NCBI GenBank assembly: GCA_028709385.1
Contig: JAQVXD010000011.1
Coordinates: 1-36,788 of the forward strand
Source: Fermentimonas sp.
GTDB taxonomy: Bacteria; Bacteroidota; Bacteroidia; Bacteroidales; Dysgonomonadaceae
Length of the DNA: 36,788 bases
Reading direction: 5' to 3'
Shown here: positions 697-29,299 of the stretch, one piece after another
How positions within the stretch are numbered: the first letter of the stretch is position 1
How the letters are laid out: each line of letters opens with the position of its first letter
Notes under the pieces: model-generated
What the model was told of the DNA's origin: nothing
What the model saw: the letters and a program-made list of their open reading frames with translations, nothing else
Database searches by the model: none
Translations under genes and position numbers: made by a program

Positions 697-719
697 ACTA
701 GTGGTATAACTAGTTTTTT
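697..719 (+). terminator. Putative rho-independent terminator after the GH127/GH146 gene
   Basis: ACTAGT (697-702), a six-base loop and a second ACTAGT (709-714) can pair, and a run of six T (714-719) follows. The stem is only six base pairs and AT-rich, so this is a weak to moderate terminator. It would separate the upstream glycosidase transcript from the regulator gene starting at 746. The rest of the 97-base gap shows nothing clear. Confidence 0.5.
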
Positions 720-745
720 ATAACATACTTTTACTACTTTTTTAA

Positions 746-4759: not shown

Positions 4760-4772
4760 GAAAGAATTGCTA

Positions 4773-4799
4773 TTAATTGACCAATATTTTATCAATTAA
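4773..4799. repeat. Perfect 8-bp inverted repeat upstream of the GH2 gene
   Basis: TTAATTGA (4773-4780) and TCAATTAA (4792-4799) are exact reverse complements separated by 11 bases, in the 97-base gap between the HTCS gene and the GH2 gene. There is no T-tract, so it is not an obvious terminator. It could be a regulator site or only an AT-rich chance palindrome. Confidence 0.35.
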
Positions 4800-4856
4800 G
4801 CATGGATTTAAAACTATTTTCGTAATCGTATGATAATAACCCTAAAATAATTTTTT

Positions 4857-6665
4857 ATGAGAACAATTTTTACATTTTTATTTACAGTATTATTAACATT
4901 CAGCATTTCGGCGCAATGGAAAACGGCTGGTGATAAACTTAAAACGCGATGGGCATCAGAAATAGATGTCAATAATGTTTTACCGGAGTATCCTAGACCA
5001 ATAATGGAGAGAGCTGAATGGCAAAATCTAAACGGACTATGGAACTATGCAATCCTCCCTGTAGGAGAGCAACCGGCAAGTTATGACGGTCAAATACTTG
5101 TACCTTTTGCAGTTGAATCAAGTCTCTCAGGAGTACAGAAACGCGTAGGTTCAGAGAACGAACTTTGGTATCAGCGGGATTTCACTGTTCCTTCAAAATG
5201 GAAAAACAACAAGATATTGCTACACTTTGGAGCAGTTGACTGGAGAGCAGATGTTTGGGTAAATGATGTTAAAGTCGGTCGCCATCAGGGCGGTTATACA
5301 CCTTTCTCCTTTGATGTGACAGCAGCATTAGTTAACGGCACAAATATGATAAAAGTGAAAGTATGGGATCCCACAGATCGGGGTTTTCAGCCAAGAGGAA
5401 AACAGGTAAACAGACCTGAGGGAATTTGGTATACACCTGTTACAGGAATCTGGCAGACTGTTTGGCTAGAGCCTGTTCCTGAAACTTATATTAAAGACCT
5501 CAAAATAACTCCTAATATTGACAATAATACACTTTTAGTAGAGGCTATTACTAACATGTATACTTCTGCTAACAGAGTTGAGGTAACAGTTAAGGATGGT
5601 AACAGTGTAGTTGCAACAGGAAAATCAATTAATAAACAGCCTGTTGAGATAGCAATGCCTAAGAATGTGAAGCTTTGGTCACCTGATAGTCCTAATCTTT
5701 ATAACCTTGAAGTTGTAGTCTACGACGGCAACAAACAGCTTGACAAAGTTGAAAGTTATGCTGCAATGAGAAAATATTCAATGAAACGTGACGATAAAGG
5801 TATAGTAAGACTACAACTAAATAACAAGGATCTTTTTCAGTTTGGTCCGCTTGACCAGGGCTGGTGGCCTGATGGTTTATATACTGCAGCAACCGATGAA
5901 GCACTTGAATATGATATCATTAAAACAAAAGATTTAGGTTTCAATATGATACGTAAGCATGTAAAGGTTGAGCCTGCCCGCTGGTATACTCATTGCGACC
6001 GTCATGGAATTATTGTCTGGCAGGATATGCCAAATGGTGACCGCGGACCGGAATGGCAGATGCATAATTATTTTACAGGAAACGAAAGAGTTCGCTCAGC
6101 TGAATCAGAAGCTAACTATCGTCAGGAGTGGAAAGAACTGATTGATTATTTATATTCATATCCTTCAGTAGGTGTATGGGTTCCATTTAATGAAGCTTGG
6201 GGACAATTTAAAACCAAGGAGATTACTGAATGGACAAAAGCATACGACCCGACACGTCTTGTTAACCCTGCCAGTGGCGGAAATCATTACACTACAGGAG
6301 ATATGCTTGACTTACATAATTATCCTAACCCGAGAATGTATCTGTATGACGCACAAAGAGCTACTGTTTTGGGAGAATACGGAGGCATAGGATGGGCAAA
6401 CAAAGAACATCTTTGGGAGCCGGACAGAAACTGGGGATACGTTCAGTTTAACAGCTCAAAAGAGGTTACTGATGAGTATATTAAGTATGCAGAAGAACTG
6501 AAACAGTTAATTCGCCAGGGATTCTCTGCTGCAGTTTATACTCAGACAACTGACGTTGAGGTTGAAGTTAACGGCCTGCTTACCTATGATCGTAAACTTG
6601 TGAAGGTTGACGAAGATAGAGTAAGGAAAGTCAATCAGGAAATATGCAATATATTGAACGATTAA
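4857..6665 (+). CDS. Secreted GH2 family glycoside hydrolase
   Basis: A 602-residue exported enzyme with a signal peptide ending near ISAQ (residue 19). It has the GH2 layout: jelly-roll sugar-binding domain (about 30-215, with WYQRDF, LHFGAVDWRADVWVN, GGYTPFSFDVT), immunoglobulin-like domain (about 215-310) and TIM barrel. Glu446 in VPFNEAWGQ fits the acid/base and Glu507 in VLGEYGG the nucleophile. GH2 enzymes are retaining exo-hydrolases that cut beta-galactosides, beta-glucuronides, beta-mannosides or alpha-L-arabinopyranosides; the sequence alone does not choose. It is shorter than LacZ because the C-terminal domains are missing, which is usual for this subgroup in Bacteroidota. Its end overlaps the next gene by 22 bases, so the two are co-transcribed. 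Confidence 0.9.
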   Translation: MRTIFTFLFTVLLTFSISAQWKTAGDKLKTRWASEIDVNNVLPEYPRPIMERAEWQNLNGLWNYAILPVGEQPASYDGQILVPFAVESSLSGVQKRVGSENELWYQRDFTVPSKWKNNKILLHFGAVDWRADVWVNDVKVGRHQGGYTPFSFDVTAALVNGTNMIKVKVWDPTDRGFQPRGKQVNRPEGIWYTPVTGIWQTVWLEPVPETYIKDLKITPNIDNNTLLVEAITNMYTSANRVEVTVKDGNSVVATGKSINKQPVEIAMPKNVKLWSPDSPNLYNLEVVVYDGNKQLDKVESYAAMRKYSMKRDDKGIVRLQLNNKDLFQFGPLDQGWWPDGLYTAATDEALEYDIIKTKDLGFNMIRKHVKVEPARWYTHCDRHGIIVWQDMPNGDRGPEWQMHNYFTGNERVRSAESEANYRQEWKELIDYLYSYPSVGVWVPFNEAWGQFKTKEITEWTKAYDPTRLVNPASGGNHYTTGDMLDLHNYPNPRMYLYDAQRATVLGEYGGIGWANKEHLWEPDRNWGYVQFNSSKEVTDEYIKYAEELKQLIRQGFSAAVYTQTTDVEVEVNGLLTYDRKLVKVDEDRVRKVNQEICNILND

Positions 6666-7798
6666 TCTTTTTGTCAGTTTTTCTTTTCGCAGCTTTATCT
6701 TGTGAAAACAGGGAAAACCAGGCTGAAAAGAATTACTTTATAGAATGGGATAACACCTCTCTCGTCTGCATTGCAGATGAGGGAGGTTATCCTCGTTTAA
6801 TAAAACTGGATGACGAATCTCTGCTGGCCGTATACGAAAACAGAAAGGGAGATGTAGTAGTAAAAAAGAGTTTTGATAACGGTTCAGTATGGAGTGATGA
6901 AGTAACATCATTTGAAGCTTTTAATTACACTAATCCTCAAACAGGAGAAGAAACAAGGGTGAATATCGCCAATCCGGAAATTATTCAACTCGCTGACGGT
7001 GATTTGCTGCTTGCTGTTAACCTCCGCCCGCGTATTGAAGGAATTTACCCTTTTTCAATTGCTTTGAAAAGAAGTAGTGATAATGGAGCAACATGGTCGG
7101 ATGCTGAAATTTTGTTTCAAGCTGCAGAACAATTCAGAGACGGTTGCTGGGAGCCATCCTTTTTATTGTTGCCTGATGGTACAATACAAATATATTTTGC
7201 AAACGAATACCCGTACCAACAATCAGACGAACAGGAAATTTCGGTTTTAACTTCATACGACAACGGTTTTTCATGGGAAAGTGAACCAAAAACGGTTAGT
7301 TTTCGCAAGGGTCATCGTGACGGTATGCCGATGGCAGTGCATGACGGGGAATCGGTTTATGTAGTTATTGAAGATAATGTTTCAGGTCAGTTTAAACCCT
7401 GGATTATAAGTGGTACAGTTAATAACAGTTGGGATAACCCAGTACTTGCAGACTCACCGGACAGATATTCCGCACTTAAAAATAATCTCCCGGATACGGT
7501 TTATGCCGGTGCACCCTACATGATAAGGACTAATAGCGGTATTTATCTGATATCCTATCAAACGACAGAAAATAGATCATCTAATTGGGAACTTTCTACA
7601 ATGGAAGTAGTGGTAAGCCACAATTCTTTTGATTTTAGAAATCCGACTCAGCCATTTAATGTACCATTGAACAAAGAAGCAAAATGGAATTCTTTATCTG
7701 ATATCGGTAATAATACAATTGCTGCACTTGCTTCTACAAATTTCAATTCAGAAAAGATAGGTGTCTGGATGATTAAAGGTAAGATTGTCTTTAAGTGA
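6644..7798 (+). CDS. Lipoprotein with sialidase-fold propeller, GH93-like exo-arabinanase candidate
   Basis: A 384-residue lipoprotein with lipobox LSC at Cys20. Three Asp-box motifs (S/T-x-D-x-G-x-x-W) are visible at residues 76-83, 144-151 and 204-211, the mark of sialidase-type six-bladed propellers. The stretches RLIKLDDESLLAVYE, CWEPSFLLLPDG and RDGMPMAV resemble GH93 exo-1,5-alpha-L-arabinanases more than true sialidases, and no sialidase arginine triad or FRIP motif stands out. In a locus with GH127/146 and GH43 enzymes an exo-arabinanase would make sense. An automatic annotation would probably say exo-alpha-sialidase or BNR-repeat protein. The ATG lies inside the 3' end of the GH2 gene, a translational-coupling arrangement. 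Confidence 0.7.
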   Translation: MQYIERLIFLSVFLFAALSCENRENQAEKNYFIEWDNTSLVCIADEGGYPRLIKLDDESLLAVYENRKGDVVVKKSFDNGSVWSDEVTSFEAFNYTNPQTGEETRVNIANPEIIQLADGDLLLAVNLRPRIEGIYPFSIALKRSSDNGATWSDAEILFQAAEQFRDGCWEPSFLLLPDGTIQIYFANEYPYQQSDEQEISVLTSYDNGFSWESEPKTVSFRKGHRDGMPMAVHDGESVYVVIEDNVSGQFKPWIISGTVNNSWDNPVLADSPDRYSALKNNLPDTVYAGAPYMIRTNSGIYLISYQTTENRSSNWELSTMEVVVSHNSFDFRNPTQPFNVPLNKEAKWNSLSDIGNNTIAALASTNFNSEKIGVWMIKGKIVFK

Positions 7799-7888
7799 TA
7801 AATGATGTATCATCAAGCACAAGACATGAGCCTTAAATAGTAAGAAATAAGTAGTATAAAGTATTTATATTTAATAAAAAAACAAGCT

Positions 7889-8890
7889 GTGAAGACAATC
7901 ACAATATATGTAATTTTCATTCTTGTCTCGCTCTTAAGCTGTAAAGCTAATGAACCGAGTGATGTTAATACTGTTCCTGAAAAAGTTTACAAGAATCCGG
8001 TAATAAATTTAAGCTTACCCGACCCGACAATAATTAAAGCGGAAGATGGTAATTTTTACCTTTACGCTACCGAAGATATAAGGAATACACCTATATACAA
8101 GTCGGCCAACCTTGTTGACTGGCAATTTGCAGGAACAGCTTTTACTGATATGACAAGACCCACATTTGAACCTGGGGGAGGACTTTGGGCTCCTGATATA
8201 AATTATATAAACGGAAAATACGTTCTTTATTATTCAATGTCGGTTTGGGGCGGTGAATGGACATGTGGTATTGGTGTGGCGACTGCTGATAAGCCTGAAG
8301 GTCCATTTACAGATCAAGGTAAACTGTTTCGCAGCAATGAGATAGATGTACAAAACTCTATTGACCAGTTTTATATTGAAGAGAATGGTAAAAAGTATCT
8401 TTTCTGGGGAAGCTTCAGAGGGATATATTATATCGAGTTGTCAGATGACGGACTATCGCTGAAACCTGATGCTGAAAAAAAACAGATTGCAGGAACAGCT
8501 TATGAAGGTGTTTATATTCATCAGAGAAACGGTTACTATTATATGTTTGCTTCAATAGGTTCATGCTGTGAGGGACTTAAAAGTACCTATACAACAGTTG
8601 TTGGCCGTTCAGACAATCTTTTCGGGCCATATGTTGATAAACAGGGAAGGCCGATGATGGAGAATAATCATGAAGTTTTTATTCACAAAAACAGTAGTTT
8701 TGTTGGTACAGGCCACAACTCAGAAATTGTCCAAGACAAAAAGGGAAATGACTGGATATTTTATCATGCAGTTTCGGTTGCAAAACCAAAAGGGCGTGTA
8801 CTGATGATGGATCAGGTGAGGTGGCAAGATGACTGGCCATATGTTGAGGGTAATTCTCCATCCCTGGAAGAAGCAAAACCTGTGTTTTAA
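7889..8890 (+). CDS. GH43 family lipoprotein, probable arabinanase or arabinofuranosidase
   Basis: A 333-residue five-bladed propeller enzyme of family GH43. The start is GTG; it gives a complete lipoprotein signal with Cys18 in LLSC. The three GH43 carboxylates are visible: Asp45 in LPDPTII (base), Asp159 in NSIDQFYI (pKa modulator) and Glu206 in YEGVYI (acid). Glu-Gly-x-Tyr-Ile and His276 in GTGHNSEI match the calcium/chloride site region of endo-1,5-alpha-L-arabinanases, so arabinan is the most likely substrate; xylan-type activities cannot be excluded. GH43 enzymes invert the anomeric configuration. It lies 90 bases after the GH93-like gene, with only a small palindrome (7803-7815, TGATG-tat-CATCA) between them. 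Confidence 0.87.
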   Translation: MKTITIYVIFILVSLLSCKANEPSDVNTVPEKVYKNPVINLSLPDPTIIKAEDGNFYLYATEDIRNTPIYKSANLVDWQFAGTAFTDMTRPTFEPGGGLWAPDINYINGKYVLYYSMSVWGGEWTCGIGVATADKPEGPFTDQGKLFRSNEIDVQNSIDQFYIEENGKKYLFWGSFRGIYYIELSDDGLSLKPDAEKKQIAGTAYEGVYIHQRNGYYYMFASIGSCCEGLKSTYTTVVGRSDNLFGPYVDKQGRPMMENNHEVFIHKNSSFVGTGHNSEIVQDKKGNDWIFYHAVSVAKPKGRVLMMDQVRWQDDWPYVEGNSPSLEEAKPVF

Positions 8891-8940
8891 AAATAGTGAA
8901 ATCATAAATAAAAAATGTGCAGGGGTTAAGAATATTTTCT

Positions 8941-8948
8941 TACATTTG
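8941..8948 (+). promoter_or_regulatory. Bacteroidota -7 box (TAnnTTTG) before the mutarotase gene
   Basis: TACATTTG matches TAnnTTTG exactly and lies 63 bases before the mutarotase ATG at 9011. The -33 element is not clear. The box sits inside a longer inverted repeat, CTTACAT (8939-8945) with ATGTAAG (8966-8972), so a DNA-binding protein could block or control it. Confidence 0.5.
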
Positions 8949-9010
8949 CGAATAGTACATTATGCATGTAAGATAAATAATGCAAACTTTTGGAAAAATA
9001 TAAAAAGAAT

Positions 9011-10165
9011 ATGAAGAAATTTTATCAAATCGTTTTATTGTTAGCAGTTATTGCAGCAGTGGGCTGCACTAACAAACAACAAGAAACACAAACTGAGCAG
9101 ACAACATTGTCAGGATTGAAAAAAAGTGATTTCCAATCTAGTTTAAACGGAGATTCAACAGATCTTTATGTACTTACAAATGCAAATGGCGTAGAGGTGG
9201 CAATCACAAATTATGGCGGACGCATTGTTTCAGTTATGGTTCCGGATAGAGAAGGTAACATGAAAGATGTTGTATTGGGCTTCGATAATATTGATGATTA
9301 CACAGCAACAGATAACAATTTTGGTGCCACAATCGGTCGTTACGGTAATAGGATAGCCAATGGGAAAATCACTGTAGAGGGAGTAGAATACCAGCTTCCT
9401 CAAAATAATTTCGGACACACACTTCATGGAGGTCCCGAAGGATTCGATAAAAAAGTATTCAATGCCAATCAGCTAAACGACCAAACGCTTGAGCTTACAT
9501 ATTTGTCTGCAGACGGAGAAGCCGGATTCCCCGGTAACCTTAATGTGAAAGTTACAATGACACTTACAGATGACAATGCAATTGATATTCAATATGAAGC
9601 TGAGACTGATAAAGAGACTGTTGTAAATCTTACAAACCACTCTTATTTCAATTTATCCGGAGATGCCAATAATACTATTCTTAATGATGTTCTAACAATA
9701 AACGCAGATCAGTTTACACCCGTTGATGATACCTTCATGACTACAGGAGATATTTTGTCGGTAGAAGGAACACCAATGGATTTCAGAAGTCCGTATGTTA
9801 TTGGTGAGCGTATTGATAATTACGAATACGAGCAATTGAAATTTGGTGACGGATATGACCACAACTGGGTGCTGAATACCGGAAGTAATATATCTCAACT
9901 TGCAGCATCTGTTCATTCATCAGCGACAGGAATACTACTTGAAGTTTTTACTACTGAACCGGGTTTGCAGGTTTATACAGGCAATTTTTTGAATGGTACT
10001 GATACAGGTAAATATGGTGCAGTGTATAATAAACGTAATGCTATCTGTCTGGAAACACAGAAGTATCCTGACTCACCAAATAAACCCGAATGGCCATCGC
10101 CTTATTTAAAACCGGGAGAAAAATATACAAGTCGCTGTATTTATAAATTCTCATTAAAAGGATAA
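9011..10165 (+). CDS. Aldose 1-epimerase (galactose mutarotase family), lipoprotein
   Basis: Mutarotase interconverts alpha and beta anomers of aldoses. I place the start at ATG 9011, not the in-frame TTG at 8990, because 9011 gives a clean lipoprotein signal MKKFYQ...AAVGC with Cys19; the product is 384 residues. The fold is the GalM beta-sandwich. His139 in HTLHGGPEGFD, His210 in TNHSYFNLSG (general acid) and Glu348 in CLETQKYPDSPN (general base) are the expected catalytic residues. In this locus the enzyme probably acts on L-arabinose or galactose released outside the cytoplasm and speeds uptake of the right anomer. A promoter box lies just upstream, so it may be expressed independently of the hydrolases. 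Confidence 0.93.
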   Translation: MKKFYQIVLLLAVIAAVGCTNKQQETQTEQTTLSGLKKSDFQSSLNGDSTDLYVLTNANGVEVAITNYGGRIVSVMVPDREGNMKDVVLGFDNIDDYTATDNNFGATIGRYGNRIANGKITVEGVEYQLPQNNFGHTLHGGPEGFDKKVFNANQLNDQTLELTYLSADGEAGFPGNLNVKVTMTLTDDNAIDIQYEAETDKETVVNLTNHSYFNLSGDANNTILNDVLTINADQFTPVDDTFMTTGDILSVEGTPMDFRSPYVIGERIDNYEYEQLKFGDGYDHNWVLNTGSNISQLAASVHSSATGILLEVFTTEPGLQVYTGNFLNGTDTGKYGAVYNKRNAICLETQKYPDSPNKPEWPSPYLKPGEKYTSRCIYKFSLKG

Positions 10166-10217
10166 TTATTCCCGGTTCAAATAAATAGTAGCGCTAACAC
10201 ACCTAAACATAAGCTAG

Positions 10218-11006
10218 ATGAAAACAAAAACATTTCTTGTCATTTTGCTAGCATTAACGATGACTACTCAGTACTTATGGTCAAAGACAAAGTTGGGAGA
10301 ACAGAGTTTCTTCCAGCTTACAGTTTATCATTATAATACAGCTCTACAGGAAGATATATTGGATAGTTATTTTCAGGATGCACTAATTCCTGCATTGCAC
10401 GACATGGATATTCAATCTGTTGGGGTTTTCAAGGCAATTTCAAATGATACCTCAGCAAATAAGACATTGTATGTTTTGTTTCCAGTGAAGTCATTAAACA
10501 TGATTGAAGATATAAACGTAAAGCTGCTAAATGATGAAAAATTTAAATCGGCCGGCAAAGGGTATCTGGATGTGAAATATGATTCTCCTGCATATACACG
10601 TATGGAAACGATCTTGCTTAAGTCGTTTTCCTTATCTCCCGTATTGAAATTGCCTAAGCTGAAATCTCCTAAAGATCAGCGAGTGTATGAGTTGCGCAGC
10701 TATGAAAGTGCTGGAGAAAACATATTTCGTAATAAGCTTCACATGTTTAATGAAGGTGGAGAAATTGACATATTTACAAAACTAAATTTTAATGCTGTAT
10801 TCTACGGTGAAGTAATTGCCGGATCAAAAATGCCAAACCTCATGTATATGACTACATTTGAGAATAAGGAAGATCGAGATGCACACTGGTCATCTTTTGG
10901 TTCTGACCCTGACTGGAAAAAGCTCTCATCGCTACCGGAATACAAAAATAATGTTTCACACATTGATGTTACATTTTTGCGCCCTGTGGATTATTCTGAT
11001 TATTAA
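10218..11006 (+). CDS. Exported NIPSNAP family protein
   Basis: A 262-residue protein with a signal peptide (about 1-22, ending LWS). It has two similar ferredoxin-like halves, as in NIPSNAP and other dimeric alpha-beta barrel proteins: FFQLTVYHYN (about 31-40), and VYELRSYESAGENIFRNKLHMF with FNAVFYGEVIAG and YMTTFENKEDRDAHWSSF in the second half. The biochemical role of bacterial NIPSNAP proteins is not established. It follows the mutarotase after 52 bases and probably belongs to the same transcript. The following 134-base gap (11007-11140) holds only AT-rich sequence with no convincing terminator. Confidence 0.8.
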   Translation: MKTKTFLVILLALTMTTQYLWSKTKLGEQSFFQLTVYHYNTALQEDILDSYFQDALIPALHDMDIQSVGVFKAISNDTSANKTLYVLFPVKSLNMIEDINVKLLNDEKFKSAGKGYLDVKYDSPAYTRMETILLKSFSLSPVLKLPKLKSPKDQRVYELRSYESAGENIFRNKLHMFNEGGEIDIFTKLNFNAVFYGEVIAGSKMPNLMYMTTFENKEDRDAHWSSFGSDPDWKKLSSLPEYKNNVSHIDVTFLRPVDYSDY

Positions 11007-13079: not shown

Positions 13080-14630
13080 TTATTCATTTGCAAGAGGAAT
13101 AAACTGAGCACTAAGATCAGGATCATCCATGTCAGGATCTAGCGGATACATAGGTCTGTTTATCCTTTTGTAAGGCAATCTCAATAAGTCCTGGTCTACA
13201 CCTCCCGGAGTTAATGCCATCACCCAGTCTTCCCTCAAGTCATACAGTTCAGGCGTAAGATACCCAATCTTATTTACAAGAATATCAATTTCCTTTGGGT
13301 TAAGTCCAAGATCAGTAAAATCACGCTCATAGTGATATGCATTTCTTTTTTCAGTAACAACAGTGTAAATATTACCACTTTTGACTACCACCTCAATGTT
13401 GTTATCACTCTCTTTAATTGCAGTAATTTCACCCTGTATTCTGACCGGAGGTGCAAACCGATCATCTACTTCAGCCCCTGCTAATTCTTCAACTTGGCCT
13501 CCAACGCCAACTTCAACAGCTTTTTTTACGAGCGCAGGACCCGGAATTGATGCATAAATCAGTTTTTTACTATCAGAAGCCTTAAATTCAGGTCGTTTAA
13601 AGATCTCATGCAGAGTCCAGGTTACATCACCTGCGCCCCCGGCTGTTGGGTTGTCACCCATGTCACTAATTATAAAGGGTTTTTTGTCACTCGACAGAGC
13701 CTGATTCATAGCATCATCAAAGTAGGTTGTAGGAGCCACAAATTCAAACTCTTCCCTGACATCCCAAAAGCGTAGTGCCAATCTCTCTGCAGCTTTGCCA
13801 ACTGCCTCTTTATCATCGCCGTAAGCCATTACAACAGCGTGATTGCGAGGTTCATCAGCCCAAGGGTATGACATCCATATAGCAGCATCAATAACATTAT
13901 CACCATCAATTTGTCCTGGAATTAGTTCATATAAACCTTTGCCCGGCTCTATACGGGTACTCGTTTTTTCTCCGGGGAGTAATATTGGCACAGGAATCCA
14001 TGCCTTGTAGGCAGGTTTGCCTTTACCCGACTCAAGTCTGTTGAGTAGATTTGTAACAGCTCTCTTTTTTGTTTCTATTGCATCTTCGTGAGGAGCAAGC
14101 CTATAACAAGTAATCAGATCCGAGTTCTTGGCAAGTCGGGGAGAAACACTTCCATGCAAATCCATTGTTGTTGAAACTAATACCTCATTACCAACTAATT
14201 CTCTGATCCTTTGCAGAAAGTCACCTTCCGGATCATCAAGTCCCTGAACACTCATTGCGCCATGAACATCGAAAAACAATCCATCCAACGGCAAATTAGC
14301 TTCTAGCATGCTTAATGTTTTAGTAACCAGCGATTCATAAGCCTCGAGTGTTACAATTCCGCCCGGCATTGCATGCCCTCGCAGTGTAGGCAGCCAAACA
14401 GCTCTGTTAATGATTCCTGAATCAGGATTCATAAAAGGGTAATAACTAAATACATCTTCACCTTCACGTGTTCCGAAAGCCTCTTCGTGAGTCACAGCAG
14501 GCGAGAATGTACTTGATTCGATAGCAATACCCGCTATTGCAATTCTTGGTAGCTCATTATTATTCTGACTCTTACAACCTGTCAGAATAAGTAATACTCC
14601 AGCAGTAATTACAAGAATTATCTTTTTCAT
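13080..14630 (-). CDS. M81 family (MlrC-like) metallopeptidase, lipoprotein
   Basis: A 516-residue protein with lipobox LTGC near residue 19, so probably exported and lipid-anchored. The body matches M81/DUF1485 proteins, named after microcystinase MlrC: IAIAGIAIESSTFSP at the start, DGLFFDVHGAMS, TMDLHGSVSP, CYRLAPHEDA, and ISDMGDNPTAGGAGD in the second half. The His and Asp in these segments are candidate metal ligands. MlrC acts on linearised microcystin, but most M81 proteins have no known substrate, so none should be assumed here. It lies between rsmE and nth with 12- and 13-base gaps, which suggests co-transcription and not a shared function. Confidence 0.85.
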   Translation of the reverse strand: MKKIILVITAGVLLILTGCKSQNNNELPRIAIAGIAIESSTFSPAVTHEEAFGTREGEDVFSYYPFMNPDSGIINRAVWLPTLRGHAMPGGIVTLEAYESLVTKTLSMLEANLPLDGLFFDVHGAMSVQGLDDPEGDFLQRIRELVGNEVLVSTTMDLHGSVSPRLAKNSDLITCYRLAPHEDAIETKKRAVTNLLNRLESGKGKPAYKAWIPVPILLPGEKTSTRIEPGKGLYELIPGQIDGDNVIDAAIWMSYPWADEPRNHAVVMAYGDDKEAVGKAAERLALRFWDVREEFEFVAPTTYFDDAMNQALSSDKKPFIISDMGDNPTAGGAGDVTWTLHEIFKRPEFKASDSKKLIYASIPGPALVKKAVEVGVGGQVEELAGAEVDDRFAPPVRIQGEITAIKESDNNIEVVVKSGNIYTVVTEKRNAYHYERDFTDLGLNPKEIDILVNKIGYLTPELYDLREDWVMALTPGGVDQDLLRLPYKRINRPMYPLDPDMDDPDLSAQFIPLANE

Positions 14631-21583: not shown

Positions 21584-21639
21584 TTTGTACATTTATTTTC
21601 TCTGTTATTATAATTTTTTTGTACTTTTATGGACTTTAT

Positions 21640-21694: not shown

Positions 21695-23260
21695 ATGTCG
21701 AGAATTTCAAAAAGGAACAATAAACCTAAAAAGAAATTTTATCAACGAAGAGGTTTTATCCTGAGCACAGGGATTATTATAGGAATAGTATTTGTAGCCG
21801 CTTTATACCAGACTTCGGTCTATTTTTCTACAAATGAATCCTGCATGATCTGCCACGTACATCCACACGCAGAGGAAAGCTGGCAGCTTTCTGTACACGT
21901 AAATAACGGAAGCGGAGTTATGGTTAATTGTGTTGATTGCCACCTTCCTCCAACAGATAATACGTGGGCACATTATTCAGCAAAAGCAGTTTTGGGTGCA
22001 AGAGATTTGTGGGGATACCTGACAAAGGACAGTGCAGATTTTAACTGGGATCAGAAATCAGAACTGGAATATGCTGTTAAATATATCCCCAATGAATCTT
22101 GTGTAAAATGTCATCAGAATCTATTTCCTGAAGGTGTAACAGATGATGGAATTACAGCGCATCTCTATTACGAAGACAATGCAGAGAAGCTTGATTTGCA
22201 ATGCATAAGCTGCCATCTGGATGCAGGTCATTACAACCCGAATTACGCTCACGGTCAGATGGTAGGCATCCCCGGAATGGCCGGTTCCTATGCAGTTGAT
22301 ACCAGTCTCTATTTTAAAGAAGCAACCCCTGTAAGTAGTTTTACTGATTTCAGGGAACAGATACCGGGTACGCCGATCTCTTTTAATATGATTGCCATTG
22401 ACGGCGGTACCTTTAAGATGGGCAGCCCTGAAAAAGAACCCTTCAGAAATCCTGATGAATCACCTCAGCATGAAGTTACAGTTAGTCCATTCTTTATGGC
22501 AGAGGTTGAAACAACCTGGGATCAGTACTGGGCATTTTATGCTGAAACAATGAGTGAGGGCAGAACACCTCCTGAGGTGGTTTATGAAAACAATCTGAAT
22601 GCTCTCGGTGTAGATGCGATCTCAGGTCCCACACCGCCATTTGGTTATCCCGACCAGGGTTGGGGACAGGGAGACAGACCTGCAATAACCATGACTCATT
22701 ATGCTGCTGAGACTTATTGTAAGTGGTTGTCGGAGAAAACAGGAAAGAAATATAGGTTACCTACTGAAGCTGAATGGGAATATGCTGCAAGAGGTGGCAG
22801 AGAAACGCCTTACTTTTTCAGCGGAAGCCCCAAAGAATTCTCAGACCAAGGGTTTATGCGTAATATTTTTAAACCTAAGACGGACAGTATCAGTAGCTAT
22901 GTAATATATGATAATAACAGCAACGGACGCACGCAACTTCCTTCTGAAGTATTTCCAAATCCTTTCGGACTCAAGAATATGTTGGGCAACGTACTTGAAT
23001 ATACCGCCGATAAATATGATCCGGAAGCATATAGTAAAAGAAGCGGTACAACTATTGATCCGATTGTAACCGAAGGTGAAGAGTGGGTCGTTCGCGGAGG
23101 AAACTACACCTCTGATGCTGCCGATGTACGTAGTGCTTCCCGTTTTCATACACATCACGATGATTGGATGAGAACAGACCCTCAACAACCAAAAAGTATC
23201 TGGTGGTATTCGGATATAAAAGGTATAGGGTTCCGTGTAGTATGTGAACCTGATATTTAA
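21695..23260 (+). CDS. NrfH/NapC-like tetraheme cytochrome c fused to an SUMF1 (FGE-like) domain
   Basis: A 521-residue two-part protein. A basic N-terminus and one membrane anchor (about 21-43) lead into a NapC/NirT/NrfH-like domain with four CxxCH heme sites at Cys50, Cys79, Cys136 and Cys170. Residues about 230-518 form an SUMF1/formylglycine-generating-enzyme-like domain: IDGGTFKMGSP, VTVSPFFMAEVETTWDQYW, YCKWLSEKTGKKYRLPTEAEWEYAARGG, GNVLEYTADKYD, WVVRGGNY and GIGFRVV. The catalytic cysteine pair of true FGE is not seen, so it is probably not a sulfatase activator. NrfH-type cytochromes carry electrons between the quinol pool and periplasmic enzymes. The SUMF1 part may bind a partner or a glycan, which is inference. 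The next genes encode exported sugar oxidoreductase-like proteins and a heme lyase. Confidence 0.88.
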   Translation: MSRISKRNNKPKKKFYQRRGFILSTGIIIGIVFVAALYQTSVYFSTNESCMICHVHPHAEESWQLSVHVNNGSGVMVNCVDCHLPPTDNTWAHYSAKAVLGARDLWGYLTKDSADFNWDQKSELEYAVKYIPNESCVKCHQNLFPEGVTDDGITAHLYYEDNAEKLDLQCISCHLDAGHYNPNYAHGQMVGIPGMAGSYAVDTSLYFKEATPVSSFTDFREQIPGTPISFNMIAIDGGTFKMGSPEKEPFRNPDESPQHEVTVSPFFMAEVETTWDQYWAFYAETMSEGRTPPEVVYENNLNALGVDAISGPTPPFGYPDQGWGQGDRPAITMTHYAAETYCKWLSEKTGKKYRLPTEAEWEYAARGGRETPYFFSGSPKEFSDQGFMRNIFKPKTDSISSYVIYDNNSNGRTQLPSEVFPNPFGLKNMLGNVLEYTADKYDPEAYSKRSGTTIDPIVTEGEEWVVRGGNYTSDAADVRSASRFHTHHDDWMRTDPQQPKSIWWYSDIKGIGFRVVCEPDI

Positions 23261-23311
23261 TTTAAAAGCTGAAAATTACTAATTTATTGTTTTATATAAT
23301 ATTTATCCAAA

Positions 23312-24691
23312 ATGAAAAAAGAGAATAATTTAACCAGAAGATCATTCCTGAAGACTTCTGCTGTAGCAGGCGCAGTAGGTGTAATAGGCACAGGTTCTGC
23401 AGGTTTACTTACATCCTGCAGTGGTGGAACACAAGGAAAAGGAGCAAATGCTCCACTGAGAGAGCCGGGCAGTTATTACATCCCCGAATTGCCTGATCTT
23501 GCAACAGACGGAAAAGAGCTTAGAGCAGGAGTAGTAGGTTGTGGCGGTCGCGGCTCAGGTGCTGCAATTAACTTTCTGAATGCAGCAAACGGAGTTACCA
23601 TTGTAGCTCTGGGTGATGTTTTTCAGGACAGAGTAGATAGTCTTGCCGATAAGTTAAAATCAGACAAAAACATAGATATTCCGGCTGAAAAGAGATTTGT
23701 AGGTCTTGATGCTTACAAGCAGGTTATTGACAGTGATATTGATGTACTAATCGATTGTACTCCTCCTCTGTTCCGTGCAGAACATTTTAAATATGCAGTA
23801 GAGAAAAACAAACACTGCTTCCTTGAAAAACCGATATGTGTTGATGCGGCAGGCTACCGTACAATTGTAGCAGCAGCAAAACAGGCACAGGCTAAAAATC
23901 TCCGTGTTGTAACAGGAACACAAAGACATCACCAGCGCAGTTATGTTGAATCCTTTAAACAGATTATGAATGGCGCAATTGGTGAAATTACAGGTGGAAC
24001 GGTTTACTGGAACCAGAGTATGTTGTGGTATCGTGAACGTCAGCCTCAATGGAGTGATTTCGAATTCATGGTACGCGACTGGGTTAACTGGAAATGGCTG
24101 TCGGGCGACCATATAGTTGAGCAGCATGTTCATAATATTGATGTATTCACATGGTTCTCCGGGTTAAGGCCGGTTAGTGCAGTAGGATTTGGTTCTCGTC
24201 AGCGTCGAGTGACAGGCGATCAGTACGACAACTTCAGTATAGATTTCACAATGGAAAATGGTATTCACCTTCACAGTATGTGTCGCCAGATTGATGGTTG
24301 TGCCAACAATGTAAGTGAATTCATTCAGGGCACAAAAGGCTCATGGTCAAGTAACGGAGGTCATGTTATTAAAGACCTTGCCGGTAAAGTTATATGGCAG
24401 TTTGATCACGAAGCAGAAAAAACTAATTACAAGCAGACAGACCCTTACACACTTGAGCATGTTAATCTAATTAACAGCATCAGAGGTAATAAACCAATCG
24501 AGCAGGCTTCCGAGACTGCAATATCTAACCTTGCAGCTGTTATGGGACGCGAATCAGCTTATACAGGCCAGGAAGTTACATGGGATGCAATGACTGCATC
24601 ACCGCTTAATTATACTCCTGCAGACCTGAATATCGGTAAGATGGATATGTCAGGATTTACTGTTCCTGTTCCAGGCAGTGCACAAAAATAA
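23312..24691 (+). CDS. Tat-exported Gfo/Idh/MocA family oxidoreductase
   Basis: A 459-residue NAD(P)-dependent oxidoreductase of the glucose-fructose oxidoreductase/inositol dehydrogenase/MocA type. The N-terminus has a twin-arginine signal (NLTRRSFLKTSAVAG, Arg9-Arg10) and a possible lipobox LLTSC at Cys36, so it is folded with cofactor in the cytoplasm and then exported. The Rossmann domain begins near residue 72 (AGVVGCGGRGSG) and holds the EKP motif at 172-174. The C-terminal domain includes DHIVEQHVHNIDVF with candidate catalytic histidines. Substrate unknown. An exported dehydrogenase needs tightly bound cofactor or an acceptor; the cytochrome gene 51 bases upstream could supply the latter. 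Confidence 0.93.
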   Translation: MKKENNLTRRSFLKTSAVAGAVGVIGTGSAGLLTSCSGGTQGKGANAPLREPGSYYIPELPDLATDGKELRAGVVGCGGRGSGAAINFLNAANGVTIVALGDVFQDRVDSLADKLKSDKNIDIPAEKRFVGLDAYKQVIDSDIDVLIDCTPPLFRAEHFKYAVEKNKHCFLEKPICVDAAGYRTIVAAAKQAQAKNLRVVTGTQRHHQRSYVESFKQIMNGAIGEITGGTVYWNQSMLWYRERQPQWSDFEFMVRDWVNWKWLSGDHIVEQHVHNIDVFTWFSGLRPVSAVGFGSRQRRVTGDQYDNFSIDFTMENGIHLHSMCRQIDGCANNVSEFIQGTKGSWSSNGGHVIKDLAGKVIWQFDHEAEKTNYKQTDPYTLEHVNLINSIRGNKPIEQASETAISNLAAVMGRESAYTGQEVTWDAMTASPLNYTPADLNIGKMDMSGFTVPVPGSAQK

Positions 24692-24697
24692 CAACTT

Positions 24698-25612
24698 ATG
24701 GCATTTGACAGAAGAAGATTTCTTAAAACTACTATTGCCGGTTCAGCAGTACTGGCAGTAGGCGGATGTAACTCATTTGCTTCAAGTGAAACTAAGGCAG
24801 GTGATATTACAACAAATGCAAAGCTGAATATCTCTTTTCAGGAAGGTACAGCTCCGGGAGCAAACCTTAATGAGAAGTTTGATTTCATGGAAGAGCATAA
24901 TGTTGTAGGATTTGAGCCTCACGGTAAGCCTCTTCTTCAAAGAAAAGAGGAGTTCAAAGAGGCTCTGAAGGGTAGAAACATAAAAGTAAGTGCTGTATGT
25001 GCAGGCTTTGACGGATTTATACTTTCCACCGATCCAGAGGTACGCAAGCTGTGTCGCGATACAATGGCCCAGCTCATAATTGCAGCAGGGGAGTTTGAGT
25101 CTACAGGTGTTATTATTGTACCCGCTTTCAACAGTCAGGTACCGGTAATGCCTCACACACAGGAGACCCGTGATTTCCTTTGCGAACAGTTTGATGAAAT
25201 GGGAACCTTTGCTCAGCAACACGGAACTACCGTAATTTTAGAACCTTTAAACCGGAGAGAAGCTTTTTATCTTCGTCAGGTAGCTGATGCAGCCTCAATA
25301 TGCCGTGATATAAATAATCCGGGGGTAACCTGTTTGGGCGACTTCTGGCACATGACCTGGGAAGAGACCTCAGACATGGCGGCCTTTATATCAGCAGGAG
25401 AATATCTTCAGCATGTGCATATTGCAAGTCGTAAACGACGCAGTATGCCGGGTGAGGATGGAGAGGCCGATAATTATGTTGATGGCTTCAGAGGTCTTAA
25501 AATGATCGGATACGACAAGTATGTCAGCTTCGAGTGCGGTCTTCAGGGTGAGCGTGAGGTAGCAGTACCTGCGGCACTTGAGTTGATGCGCAAACAGTGG
25601 GAAGACGCCTGA
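24698..25612 (+). CDS. Tat-exported TIM-barrel sugar isomerase/epimerase-like lipoprotein
   Basis: A 304-residue protein of the xylose-isomerase-like TIM-barrel superfamily (PF01261), closest in appearance to hydroxypyruvate isomerase-like proteins. The signal has RRRFLKTT (Arg5-Arg7) and a lipobox AVGGC at Cys24, so it is probably a Tat lipoprotein. Candidate metal ligands are Glu182 (ILEPLNR), Asp215 and His218 (GDFWHM), His241 (QHVHIA) and Glu279 (SFECG), a complete set. The gene follows the Gfo/Idh/MocA gene by six bases, so the two act together, perhaps as oxidation plus epimerisation or elimination on the same sugar. Substrate unknown. Confidence 0.9.
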   Translation: MAFDRRRFLKTTIAGSAVLAVGGCNSFASSETKAGDITTNAKLNISFQEGTAPGANLNEKFDFMEEHNVVGFEPHGKPLLQRKEEFKEALKGRNIKVSAVCAGFDGFILSTDPEVRKLCRDTMAQLIIAAGEFESTGVIIVPAFNSQVPVMPHTQETRDFLCEQFDEMGTFAQQHGTTVILEPLNRREAFYLRQVADAASICRDINNPGVTCLGDFWHMTWEETSDMAAFISAGEYLQHVHIASRKRRSMPGEDGEADNYVDGFRGLKMIGYDKYVSFECGLQGEREVAVPAALELMRKQWEDA

Positions 25613-25639
25613 TTATGATTTAGTATCCTTCAATATAAG

Positions 25640-25677
25640 AATGGGTGAGGGGAATACATTTCTTTCACCCATTTTTT
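25640..25677 (+). terminator. Rho-independent terminator after the TIM-barrel gene
   Basis: AATGGGTGA (25640-25648) and TCACCCATT (25665-25673) are perfect nine-base reverse complements with a 16-base loop, followed by a T run to 25677. It separates the cytochrome/Tat-protein transcript from the heme lyase gene, which therefore probably has its own promoter. Confidence 0.85.
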
Positions 25678-25723
25678 ATATCTGTTTAAAATTCAGTATT
25701 ATATTTATCCGATATTTCACAGC

Positions 25724-28210
25724 ATGGAACGATTTATCAAATTTCTGTCCTCTTACAAAGGTTCGATTGTTTTGATGTTTATCTACTCAATAGGATTAGC
25801 AACTGCAACTATTGTAGAAAAACAGATGAGCACTCAGGCCGCCAAGATGCTTATCTATTACTCACCGCTTTTTATATTCTTGCAGTTACTGCTTGTTGTT
25901 AACTTCCTGTTAGTTCTTTTCAAAAGTAATTACATCAAAAGCAAACGGTGGGCACTGATTATAATTCATGGAGCACTTATCGTGATTCTTGGCGGTGCAT
26001 TAACTACATTCCTTTTTGGTAAAGAGGGACAGATACATATTCGTGAAGGTGAAAAATCTGATCAAATGGTGATGCATACATCAAAAGGAGTCAAGACAGA
26101 AACATTACCGTTTGTACTTGAACTTACAGACTTCAAATTAAACCGATATCCGGGATCAAATAGCCCCTCTTCTTATGAAAGTGATCTGCTGGTGTATGTA
26201 GATGATGAGGTGAGAGAAGTTTCTGTTTTTATGAATAATGTGCTGGATCTCAAAGGATATCGTTTCTTTCAGGCTTCTTACGATCAGGATGAGCAGGGAA
26301 CGATTCTTTCTGTTAATAAGGACGTGGCAGGCAGAACAATCACCTATACCGGATATATTTTATTGCTTATAGGATTTTTATTAATGTTTTTAATGCCTGA
26401 TTCAAGATTCCGAAAACTTGGTGAGCAATTAAAAGAGACCAGAGACAGAGCAAAGAAATTATCACTCATATTCGTTTTGGCACTGGTTCCCTTGATTGGT
26501 TTCGGGCAAAATAATGAAGTAGATTCAATATCAACATCAACATCAACATCAATATCAATTTCAGACCATAACAACGTTTTTAATCATTCAACCGTAACTG
26601 AGGCTGTTAAGCAAAATGCAATACCTGTTGAGCAAGCAGAAAAATTTGGCTCACTACCCATACAGTTTCGTGGCAGGGTTATGCCTATGAACACTTTTTC
26701 GTCCGATATATTACGTAAGCTCCATAAGGAAACAACTATTTATAATCTTAATTCTGATCAGTTTCTCCTTAGTCTTCTTGTAATGCCACAATTATGGACG
26801 CATGTAAACTTAATAGCTACTTCAGGTGATCAGCCTTATGCTTATTATAATCAGTTTTTTGATGAAAGAGGCAATTACTTGTTGTTAAGCCAGCTTCAGC
26901 ATGTTTATCATCAGCCGGCAGATAAAAGAACTTCTTTTGAGAAAGACCTGATTAAACTTGATGAGCAGGTGAATATTCTTTATCAGCTATTTATGTATAT
27001 GATACCGGGAGTATTTCCAAATGCGGATGACCCTTCACATACATGGTATAATTTGGGAGATGATTTATCTGTTTTTGCAGAGCAAGACTCAGTCTTTATA
27101 ACTGAATCATTTAATAATTACCTTGCGGAAGTGCGATTGTCATTGCAAACCAATGATTGGAGCAAACCTGATGAAATGCTTAGTTTAATAAATGAATATC
27201 AACTCAATAATGATAAAGCCTCACTGATTAATTCAAAGAAAATTCAGGCAGAGCTAAATTATAACCGCTTCAATATATTCAACAGCACTAAACTAGGATA
27301 TTTTATCTTTGGTGGATTGTTGCTAGTTTTTGCGTTTATGCAACTGATAAATAAGAGAAGGTGGATTCATTTTGCAAATATCATTCTGATTATCGGGATA
27401 TTGATTGTTTTTATTTATCACGCTTTTGGAATAGGAATGAGGTGGTATATCTCAGGTTACGCACCGTGGAGCAATTCGTATGAGACAATGGTATATGTGG
27501 CATGGGCAACAGTCTTGGCCGGATTCATATTCGGCAGAAAGAATATTCTTACACTTGCACTTGCAACCCTGTTTGGCGGTGTTATTCTGTTTGTTTCGGG
27601 ACTTAACTGGATGGATCCTCAGATTAACACACTCGTGCCTGTACTTAATTCACCCTGGCTGATGTTTCACGTTGCTGTGATAGTAGCCGCTTATGGTTTT
27701 TTTGGTATAAGTTTTTTGCTGGGGCTAACTAATATATCAATAATGTCTTTCAGTAAAGGAAGTCCACTAATGACTCTCAGAATCAGAGAACTCAGTATAA
27801 TAAATAATATGTCACTGCTGACAGGACTGGCACTTATGACTATCGGCACTTTCCTCGGTGCGGTCTGGGCAAACGAGTCTTGGGGAAGATACTGGGGGTG
27901 GGATCCTAAAGAGACATGGGCACTTATTACAATTGTGGTTTACTCCATAGTTACACATCTGCATCTGGTGAGAAAATGGAACAACGACTGGATATTCAAT
28001 TTCACTTCCGTATTGGGATTTTCCTCTGTTTTGATGACCTACCTCGGGGTAAATTATTTCCTTAGCGGGATGCATTCTTATGGTCAAACGGATAGTTCAT
28101 CCTCAGTTTTTGTTTATATTGCATTTGTATTTGCAGTTATCGGGATTCTTGGTTTACTTTCTTACAGCAGGAGAAAGAAATTTAATGATACTGATGTTTC
28201 GAGATTATAA
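25724..28210 (+). CDS. System II cytochrome c biogenesis protein CcsBA (ResB-CcsA fusion)
   Basis: An 828-residue membrane protein that carries heme out of the cell and attaches it to CxxCH motifs of apocytochromes. The N-terminal 230 residues form a reduced ResB/CcsB half (helices near 14-32, 43-65, 78-98 and 205-225). A long exported middle region runs to about 515. The C-terminal CcsA half holds the heme-binding tryptophan-rich WWD-type motif SWGRYWGWDPKETWALIT around 721-735, plus IYHAFG and the NYFLSGMHSYG histidine. Residues 268-279 are a Ser-Ile/Thr run encoded by a hexanucleotide repeat. It would mature the tetraheme cytochrome encoded four kilobases upstream. Confidence 0.95.
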   Translation: MERFIKFLSSYKGSIVLMFIYSIGLATATIVEKQMSTQAAKMLIYYSPLFIFLQLLLVVNFLLVLFKSNYIKSKRWALIIIHGALIVILGGALTTFLFGKEGQIHIREGEKSDQMVMHTSKGVKTETLPFVLELTDFKLNRYPGSNSPSSYESDLLVYVDDEVREVSVFMNNVLDLKGYRFFQASYDQDEQGTILSVNKDVAGRTITYTGYILLLIGFLLMFLMPDSRFRKLGEQLKETRDRAKKLSLIFVLALVPLIGFGQNNEVDSISTSTSTSISISDHNNVFNHSTVTEAVKQNAIPVEQAEKFGSLPIQFRGRVMPMNTFSSDILRKLHKETTIYNLNSDQFLLSLLVMPQLWTHVNLIATSGDQPYAYYNQFFDERGNYLLLSQLQHVYHQPADKRTSFEKDLIKLDEQVNILYQLFMYMIPGVFPNADDPSHTWYNLGDDLSVFAEQDSVFITESFNNYLAEVRLSLQTNDWSKPDEMLSLINEYQLNNDKASLINSKKIQAELNYNRFNIFNSTKLGYFIFGGLLLVFAFMQLINKRRWIHFANIILIIGILIVFIYHAFGIGMRWYISGYAPWSNSYETMVYVAWATVLAGFIFGRKNILTLALATLFGGVILFVSGLNWMDPQINTLVPVLNSPWLMFHVAVIVAAYGFFGISFLLGLTNISIMSFSKGSPLMTLRIRELSIINNMSLLTGLALMTIGTFLGAVWANESWGRYWGWDPKETWALITIVVYSIVTHLHLVRKWNNDWIFNFTSVLGFSSVLMTYLGVNYFLSGMHSYGQTDSSSSVFVYIAFVFAVIGILGLLSYSRRKKFNDTDVSRL
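26525..26560 (+). repeat. Hexanucleotide microsatellite inside the CcsBA gene
   Basis: Six tandem copies of a TCAAYA-type unit (TCAATA, three TCAACA, TCAATA, TCAATT) encode alternating Ser and Thr/Ile at residues 268-279 of the exported middle region. Because the unit is two codons, slippage would change length but not frame. Confidence 0.85.
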
Positions 28211-28327
28211 TAGTTGTTGCTAAATAAACAAGAATGGATATATCATTGTGAATTGATGAACAGACCTGTTTAGTTTAGTTGCTGAAGTTCAAGTTGAAAA
28301 TAGAGTTTACTTTTTAATATCTTGATT

Positions 28328-29299
28328 ATGATTAAATGGGGATTTATAGGTTGCGGAGCAGTTACAGAGAAGAAAAGCGGACCCGCATTCAGAAAGGCAG
28401 AAGGCTCTGATGTTGTTGCCGTAATGCGCAGAGACACTGTTAAGGCAGAAGATTACGCCAGACGTCATGAAATACTGAAGTGGTACGATAATGCACTCGA
28501 TTTGATAAACGATCCGGAAGTAAATGCTGTTTATGTTGCCACACCTCCGGGATCTCATGCCGAATATGCAATAGCCTCAATGAAAGCGGGTAAGCCTGTA
28601 TATATCGAAAAACCTATGGCAGCATCATACGAAGAGTGCGTACAAATAAATAAAGTCTCGGAAGTAACAGGAGTACCCTGTTTTGTAGCCTATTACCGCA
28701 GAACCTTACCCTATTTTAACAGAGTAAAACAGATAATTGATGATGGTCTGCTGGGAGATATCTCTACTGTTCAGATACAATTCGCCATTCCTCCTTATGC
28801 TACTGATTTTGACAGAGACAATTTACCCTGGAGAGTCAAGAAGGAGTTGGCTGGAGCCGGTTATTTCTACGATCTTGCATCACATCAACTTGATCTGCTT
28901 GATTATCTGTTAGGTCAGATTGAAGATGTGAAAGGGTTTAAAAACAACATAGGCGGTTTATATGATGTAGAAGATACAGTGGCTGCTTCATTCAGATTTC
29001 AATCAGGTGTTTTGGGAAGTGGCAGCTGGAGCTTTATTGCACCTAAAGATACACGTACAGACCTGATATTCTTTACCGGAACCAAAGGTAAACTGACATG
29101 CTCCACATTCAATTTTTCTCCTATTCTGTTAGAGACATCTGAAGGCGTTGAGGAATTTATTGAAGAAAATCCAGAAAATATTCAGTTTTATCTGATTCAG
29201 AGTATTGTGAATTTTCTTAACGGTAAAGGCAAGTTGCCTGTAAGTACAGGTATAACTGCTCAGCGTACTAATTATATAATGGACAAGATTTTGGCTTAA
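28328..29299 (+). CDS. Gfo/Idh/MocA family oxidoreductase, cytosolic
   Basis: A 323-residue NAD(P)-dependent oxidoreductase without any export signal. I use ATG 28328; the in-frame TTG at 28322 would add two residues before the Rossmann strand. Motifs: WGFIGCGAVTEKKSGPAF (dinucleotide binding), VYIEKPMAAS with the EKP motif at 94-96, and YDLASHQLDLLDYLLG with the candidate catalytic His. It lies 117 bases after the CcsBA gene, a gap without clear signals. Together with the exported homologue it suggests two oxidation or reduction steps on related compounds on the two sides of the membrane. Substrate unknown. Confidence 0.93.
   Translation: MIKWGFIGCGAVTEKKSGPAFRKAEGSDVVAVMRRDTVKAEDYARRHEILKWYDNALDLINDPEVNAVYVATPPGSHAEYAIASMKAGKPVYIEKPMAASYEECVQINKVSEVTGVPCFVAYYRRTLPYFNRVKQIIDDGLLGDISTVQIQFAIPPYATDFDRDNLPWRVKKELAGAGYFYDLASHQLDLLDYLLGQIEDVKGFKNNIGGLYDVEDTVAASFRFQSGVLGSGSWSFIAPKDTRTDLIFFTGTKGKLTCSTFNFSPILLETSEGVEEFIEENPENIQFYLIQSIVNFLNGKGKLPVSTGITAQRTNYIMDKILA

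Follow-up and report, generated by a model that had tools for sequence, protein, structure and literature searches.

Dehydrogenases of the LacABC type are composed of a GMC dehydrogenase, the gluconate-2-dehydrogenase subunit 3 and a cytochrome c. The lactose 3-dehydrogenase LacABC of Caulobacter and Pedobacter is described as a membrane-bound, periplasmic enzyme that works with a DUF1080 hydrolase and whose genes are clustered with those for an epimerase, a reductase and transporters (PMC9007349). Membrane-linked extracytoplasmic sugar dehydrogenases are thus already known, and the window analyzed here, a 36,788-nucleotide (nt) stretch from Fermentimonas sp., encodes a candidate in which both the dehydrogenase and the carrier differ. 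The dehydrogenase, GFO1, belongs to the Gfo/Idh/MocA enzymes, and the carrier, CYT, is a NapC/NrfH-type tetraheme cytochrome fused to a SUMF1 domain. No match to GMC or Gluconate_2-dh3, the domains expected of a LacABC-type enzyme, was found among the 30 window proteins scanned.

BT2158 of Bacteroides thetaiotaomicron, a periplasmic glycoside 3-dehydrogenase, is likewise a Gfo/Idh/MocA enzyme acting on glycosides outside the cytoplasm (PMC11300592). GFO1 differs in lying outside the BT2158 family (NCBIfam NF058561, BT_2158_fam, glycoside 3-dehydrogenases, 27.4 bits versus a cut-off of 750 bits), and the main text of the BT2158 paper does not contain the word cytochrome.

On the carrier side, CYT shares with NrfH and NapC the membrane helix and the four c-type hemes, and differs from them in the heme-1 motif (CxxCHxH, not CxxCHxM), the C-terminal SUMF1 fusion and the partner, a dehydrogenase instead of NrfA or NapA. 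In true NrfH, heme 1 is bound by the Met of CxxCHxM, with an Asp in the distal position (PMC8840924). The first fold match of the SUMF1 part is PvdO of pyoverdine maturation, a periplasmic putative oxidoreductase with the fold of the formylglycine-generating enzyme (FGE), described as inactive and with no cofactor detected when purified, which may need an electron-transport partner (PMC6206403). PvdO has no heme fusion and its substrate is a siderophore, not a sugar; the parallel drawn here is one of analogy, not of membership. No paper describing the fusion of a cytochrome to SUMF1, or such a fusion paired with a Gfo enzyme, was among the matches listed in the open-licence literature, a weak negative, as the slashed spelling Gfo/Idh/MocA was probably missed.

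Conservation of the CYT-GFO1 pair

The relatives of CYT were compared in 121 loci, 102 with the fused form (80 near, 18 order-level and 4 class-level loci) and 19 with an unfused SUMF1 gene. The near set holds the best 80 of 146 confirmed CYT relatives and is therefore biased to close kin; the groups overlap in species, and counts of far neighbors are lower bounds because the fetched stretches differ in length. Among the matches listed, the closest CYT relatives were from Fermentimonas and Proteiniphilum metagenome bins.

GFO1 was located no more than 1.5 kb from CYT, and on its strand, in all 75 near loci that extend 700 nt or more downstream; at order level it was that close in 17/18 loci (same strand in 16/18), and all four class-level fused loci have it on the CYT strand at that distance. 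The order-level locus scored without GFO1, L136, carries it beyond a SusC/SusD-like pair, at a distance of about 9 kb and just outside the fetched stretch. GFO1 was also the same-strand neighbor of the unfused SUMF1 gene (within 1.5 kb) in 14 of the 19 loci, and the genomes of the other five hold GFO1 elsewhere. Median distances from the SUMF1 or CYT gene to GFO1 were 48 to 73 nt across groups.

Of 149 order-level genomes surveyed, 19 from 14 families have CYT (E 1e-60), with 48 to 73% identity outside its own genome, and GFO1 (E 1e-70) was present in the same 19 and in none of the 130 others. In 395 genomes of the class, a SUMF1 relative (E 1e-30) was found in 23, four with the fused form and 19 with the form without a cytochrome, and all 23 also have GFO1. 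Hypergeometric probabilities of co-occurrence were 2e-24 (order) and 9e-33 (class), uncorrected for kinship or threshold choice; the order-level value is a guide only, because thresholds differ between the searches and the genomes are related.

A sequence-only reading had joined five genes of the window into one periplasmic sugar-redox module and had set conservation of the cytochrome with the proteins exported by twin-arginine translocation (Tat) beforehand as its test. For GFO1 this conservation was borne out by the shared 19 of 149 genomes. The partnership of CYT and GFO1 is well supported, and the finding is real, stronger than claimed for two of the five genes and weaker for the others.

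Fused and heme-free forms of the SUMF1 protein

In the more distant relatives, at the 19 class-level unfused loci, SUMF1 occurs in a heme-free form. Both SUMF1 and GFO1 were placed in maximum-likelihood trees of 65 rows each (51 fused and 14 unfused), from which rows more than 85% identical and loci lacking GFO1 nearby had been removed; for SUMF1 the bootstrap had not converged. A single branch parts fused from unfused forms in both trees (support 100/100), and therefore, the trees being unrooted, the heme domain was either gained once or lost once. The trees also indicate that the two partners, the SUMF1 protein and GFO1, are inherited together. The SUMF1 domain is the likely site of contact with GFO1, because the two stay together whether hemes are present or not.

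A gene for the flavin transferase ApbE was located within 9 kb in 9/19 unfused loci versus 1/102 fused loci, a hint that would fit a flavin carrier replacing the hemes there. A flavinylation motif, looked for in SUMF1, GFO1 and the neighboring TIM-barrel protein (TIM) with a loose pattern presumed to describe it, gave one chance-like match across loci L026-L128 and none that was convincing, and the terms SUMF and MocA were absent from the main texts of two flavinylation papers. Unfused loci also contained genes for a GMC dehydrogenase with gluconate-2-dehydrogenase subunit 3 (2/19), 3-keto-disaccharide hydrolase (2/19) and YceI (3/19). In one of them (L106:9697-17649), genes for a Planctomycete-type cytochrome (PSCyt1/PSCyt2/PSD1) and DUF1501 proteins come after a heme-free cluster of SUMF1, YceI and ApbE.

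Domain architecture of CYT

CYT has 521 residues and consists of an N-terminal hydrophobic membrane helix (residues 15-44 in the model), a tetraheme NapC/NrfH-type domain with four CxxCH motifs (approximately residues 20-185) and an FGE/PvdO-like SUMF1 domain (approximately residues 225-515). The PF03264 (Cytochrom_NNT) score of 87.6 versus a cut-off of 24.1 bits, the four heme sites and the membrane helix place it in the NapC/NirT/NrfH superfamily. Four CxxCH motifs and the heme-1 motif CxxCHxH were present in 101/101 fused sequences (CYT and 100 relatives), a set selected by at least four CxxCH, for which the sequences with fewer were solely those of the 19 unfused loci. Loci L103 and L105, where antisense frames had been called, were left out of this protein set and were counted in the tblastn tables.

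CYT is not an NrfH proper, as CxxCHxM is absent in 101/101 sequences and the TIGR03153 score is 66.6 versus a cut-off of 134.2 bits. Two Cytochrom_NNT proteins were found in the genome, CYT and the NrfH of an nrf operon, which carries CVNCHVM at heme 1. CYT retains a Lys, K97, and, seven residues on, an Asp, D104; K97 aligns with a Lys of the genome's NrfH, which has a His at the second place. The two presumably correspond to the quinol-site Lys and Asp of Desulfovibrio NrfH.

The nearest relative of the SUMF1 domain depends on the method. Foldseek with the CYT model placed PvdO (5hha) first and FGE structures next, and a single-sequence search also ranked PvdO first; the family profile ranked FGE structures (123.9 bits) above PvdO (104.3 bits); the NCBIfam matches were all under cut-off, with the secretion-system protein GldK first. 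PvdO itself was rejected as an assignment (NF051459, 91.4 versus a cut-off of 500 bits), and so was FGE, as a profile alignment with four FGE sequences showed a three-residue gap and no Cys at the copper-cysteine motif, which we take to be GGS..CH.SYC.

Exported proteins GFO1 and TIM

GFO1 is a Gfo/Idh/MocA protein with a Rossmann dehydrogenase fold and a C-terminal alpha/beta domain; all three domain scores are above cut-off (PF01408 42.4, PF02894 35.8 and PF22725 33.5 bits), and the EKP and DH motifs are conserved. Across the 39 rows of an alignment, R9, R10 and F12, the glycine motif G76/G78, E172-K173 and D266-H267 were invariant. Its model (mean pLDDT 86) matched the folds of inositol dehydrogenases, glucose-fructose oxidoreductase, a glucuronide-3-dehydrogenase and 1,5-anhydro-D-fructose reductase.

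In a scan of the whole genome with Pfam TAT_signal (15 hits), GFO1 ranked best and TIM third; GFO1 and one other protein scored above the curated cut-off, and TIM, with 21.3 bits, below it. TatC is encoded in the genome (G000:C53), and GFO1 qualifies as a Tat substrate. Both leaders are of the twin-arginine type with cysteines placed, by eye, as in lipoprotein signals; some TIM relatives are without that Cys.

Residues R5 and F8 of the TIM leader and E182, D215, H218 and E279 of TIM were invariant over 21 rows, the latter four presumably suiting a metal-dependent epimerase. TIM matched 3kws, a 'putative sugar isomerase' that we take to come from Parabacteroides distasonis, with 474.5 bits. The best Protein Data Bank match with a named activity was 3-keto-D-glucoside 4-epimerase (6wn6, presumably YcjR; 85.7 bits, and 125.2 bits with a profile). 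TIM, a putative epimerase, resembles this YcjR-type enzyme by that match, of only 85.7 bits, and differs in carrying a Tat leader.

Proposed mechanism and its alternatives

We consider it about evenly balanced whether CYT and GFO1 form one extracytoplasmic sugar-oxidizing unit that passes electrons to menaquinone. In favor of it count the co-occurrence and linkage of the pair, the split common to both trees, the tetraheme domain, TatC, the heme-lyase genes next to the pair here and in Alistipes, the sugar-locus neighbors, ApbE near the unfused pair, and BT2158 and LacABC as precedents. For this unit we infer the electron direction, the cofactor and the substrate as follows. GFO1 would take up NAD(P) and fold while still in the cytoplasm, be exported by Tat and be anchored as a lipoprotein. 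It would oxidize a hydroxyl to a ketone, probably at C3 of a glycoside or on a cyclic polyol, and dock on the FGE/PvdO-like domain of CYT; the four hemes would then re-oxidize it by relaying electrons to menaquinone, from which they would reach fumarate reductase. Where TIM is present, the exported barrel would epimerize the keto product and a sugar symporter would import it. The last electron step is proposed because a cytochrome b of the succinate dehydrogenase/fumarate reductase type is encoded in the genome. With NAD+ as sole acceptor, oxidizing a sugar hydroxyl is energetically uphill; with menaquinone it is downhill, and this difference would explain why a cytochrome is present.

Several observations weigh against this scheme. 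Its weak link is the hydride-to-heme step: no flavin or other two-/one-electron switch was visible between NAD(P)H and heme, and we know of no precedent for direct hydride-to-heme transfer. The cytochrome part of the CYT model has low confidence, and therefore no docking is readable from it. Five class-level genomes have GFO1 and no SUMF1 match at E 1e-30. Some genomes carry several GFO1 copies per CYT, seven to one in G429 and three to one in G408, which would fit a single cytochrome serving more than one exported dehydrogenase. Genome G477 (locus L130) has CYT, GFO1 and TIM with twin-arginine leaders, and no TatC match was found in this 94%-complete assembly. CcsA was not significantly enriched with the module (18/19 versus 100/130 genomes, P = 0.13). 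At locus L145 (G434:C153), an NrfA gene (5324-6799) lies on the opposite strand, about 2.3-2.5 kb from CYT. BT2158 is functional in B. thetaiotaomicron, and as cytochrome is absent from the main text of its paper, exported Gfo enzymes may not need one (PMC11300592). Lastly, NapC/NrfH proteins usually move electrons outward from quinol (PMC12285233, PMC8840924).

Quinol oxidation being the normal role of such proteins (PMC12285233, PMC8840924), the flow could also be reversed, with menaquinol reducing CYT and GFO1, via SUMF1, reducing keto-sugars or another substrate outside the cytoplasm as an electron sink for an anaerobe. Gfo/Idh/MocA enzymes include sugar reductases, such as the 1,5-anhydro-D-fructose reductase among the GFO1 fold matches. 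The named hosts of CYT relatives are anaerobes, which also counts for this reading. Against it, the reduction of bound NAD(P)+ by menaquinol is uphill, and the GMC dehydrogenase and gluconate-2-dehydrogenase subunit 3 of two of the 19 unfused loci are parts of oxidizing systems. We regard reverse flow as unlikely.

Glucose-fructose oxidoreductase and Gfo-type glycosidases recycle their own NAD(P), and GFO1, with the former among its fold matches, might do the same in a redox-neutral reaction, leaving CYT to serve a separate oxidation by its PvdO-like domain. The rank of PvdO as first Foldseek match, described as a putative oxidoreductase possibly needing an electron-transport partner, speaks for this (PMC6206403). 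The explanation leaves unaccounted for both the co-occurrence of CYT and GFO1 in the same 19 genomes and the fusion of hemes to a domain that pairs with GFO1, and we regard it as improbable to the same degree as reverse flow.

An alternative NrfH feeding the nitrite reductase NrfA, with incidental neighbors, was suggested by the Cytochrom_NNT domain next to CcsBA, as in nrf operons, by a strong NrfA match in 11/19 module genomes and by locus L145, where in addition to NrfA a four-CxxCH open reading frame (ORF; 4698-5306) lies about 1.7 kb from CYT in divergent orientation. Eight of the 19 module genomes are without a strong NrfA match (three of these assemblies are less than 90% complete), and the enrichment of NrfA in module genomes did not reach significance (P = 0.32). 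The Fermentimonas genome has a separate nrfH-nrfA-ResB-ResC operon (L147:3777-8157, G000:C45) with a Crp-like regulator gene beside it, and the motif and TIGR03153 results given above also speak against NrfH. With no significant NrfA link, an nrf operon of its own in the genome and the wrong heme-1 motif, a nitrite-reductase partnership was rejected as the main role of CYT and is very improbable.

The idea that the SUMF1 domain is an FGE activating sulfatases with the cytochrome as redox helper draws on the Pfam FGE-sulfatase score of 137.7 bits, the top rank of FGE structures by family profile (123.9 bits), sulfatase genes in L104 (8.8 kb away from CYT) and L110 (3.2 kb away from the unfused gene), both by Pfam, and sulfatase cluster mates, taken without a domain scan, in L103 and, 2.2 kb away, in L065; it is hardly credible given the altered copper-cysteine motif and sulfatase-like genes in only 4/121 loci scanned by pattern or cluster.

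Locus layout and neighboring genes

The features of the region are listed in Table 1. The five ORFs on the plus strand and their domain assignments in the sequence-only reading agreed with the Pfam results. Their arrangement on one strand within about 7.6 kb likewise holds for this window; CcsBA and GFO2 fall outside the widely conserved unit, and a stem-loop splits TIM from CcsBA. A unit of five genes did not emerge, the conserved core being the pair of CYT and GFO1.

TABLE 1 Features of the CYT-GFO1 region in the 36,788-nt window of Fermentimonas sp.
Feature	Position	Strand	Description
Sigma-70-like promoter match upstream of CYT (weak)	21586..21614	+	10/12 matches
CYT	21695..23260	+	Pfam PF03264 (Cytochrom_NNT) 87.6 bits and PF03781 (FGE-sulfatase) 137.7 bits
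GFO1	23312..24691	+	Predicted Tat-exported, lipoprotein-like Gfo/Idh/MocA dehydrogenase; Pfam TAT_signal and GFO_IDH_MocA domains
TIM	24698..25612	+	Twin-arginine leader, then xylose-isomerase-like TIM barrel (epimerase/isomerase); PF01261 99.9 bits
Terminator-like stem-loop	25637..25676	+	Between cyt-gfo1-tim and ccs-gfo2
CcsBA (ResB-ResC fusion) cytochrome c heme lyase	25724..28210	+	PF01578 124.8 and PF05140 77.2 bits
GFO2, cytosolic Gfo/Idh/MocA oxidoreductase	28322..29299	+	PF22725 90.5 and PF01408 85.5 bits

The stem-loop has 18 pairs, five of them G-C, and a T-rich tail; six terminator-like sites were found in the region versus 5.5 expected, and this one has twice the pairs of the next. 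Sigma-70-like promoter sites were at chance level (25 found versus 23.5 expected). The Bacteroidota-type promoter, for which we assumed the pattern TTTG/TANNTTTG, had no match upstream of CYT, and its count was also at chance level. No export signal was apparent in GFO2. The genome assembly is 88% complete.

TIM was found within 4 kb of CYT in all 70 near loci with room for it and in 8/16 order-level loci with room. As GFO1 was present in 17/18 at that level, GFO1 is the constant partner and TIM a frequent one, and the TIM barrel did not hold up as a constant part of the module. Behind TIM in 44 loci (e.g., L061:13917-15220), genes for a conserved 236-residue protein and a LuxR-type regulator are located; the former has no Pfam match and is hemerythrin/ScdA-like by eye.

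Ccs genes were found within 6.5 kb of CYT in 20/80 near, 0/18 order-level and 0/4 class-level fused loci, with CcsBA following TIM in 17 near loci and Ccs-type genes doing so in three Alistipes loci; the one Alistipes locus scanned by domain has split ResB and ResC genes. By these near and order-level counts, CcsBA is a lineage-specific neighbor, and with no significant genome-wide enrichment of CcsA it was rejected as a core member. GFO2 is also a lineage-specific neighbor, found (tblastn, E 1e-20) in 14/80 near loci of Proteiniphilum, Fermentimonas, Petrimonas, Seramator and other Bacteroidales/Bacteroidetes.

A sugar context, which the sequence-only reading had assumed, was found in part of the loci. 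The 80 near loci contained a Nuc_H_symport-type symporter in 7, SusD in 17, another Gfo in 29 and a GH2 beta-galactosidase-like cluster in 17, and the Petrimonas locus L039 shows the order symporter, SusC-like, SusD, Gfo, CYT, GFO1, TIM, CcsBA and GFO2; on the side of the heme-free relatives, the genes for GMC dehydrogenase, gluconate-2-dehydrogenase subunit 3 and 3-keto-disaccharide hydrolase belong here.

Elsewhere in the window, positions 1-11006 comprise a sugar locus, arabinoside-type by guess, with genes for a GH127 fragment, a hybrid two-component sensor-regulator, GH2, BNR-repeat and GH43 proteins, an aldose epimerase and NIPSNAP. An M81/MlrC-type metallopeptidase is encoded at 13080-14630 on the minus strand.

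Significance for anaerobic Bacteroidota

Exported Gfo/Idh/MocA enzymes work where there is no free NAD, which raises the question of how they dispose of their electrons. This question becomes directly testable, for example in cultured gut Parabacteroides, now that CYT was found only in GFO1-bearing genomes among the 149 of the order. A tentative and rather doubtful extension is that the pair represents an unrecognized respiratory dehydrogenase of anaerobic Bacteroidota, in which the FGE/PvdO-like fold would serve as adapter from an exported NAD(P)-binding Gfo to hemes and CYT as hub for several exported Gfo enzymes. If this is true, PvdO would be a relative whose electron partner is still to be found. 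Independently of this extension, the proposed sugar-oxidizing pair would give a function to an FGE-like protein family now annotated by fold only. It would also be a sugar-fed entry point into anaerobic electron transport in Bacteroidota of the gut and of digesters, and, as predicted from the genomes, electrons from sugars may go directly into the respiratory membrane in some bacteria of gut and sludge.

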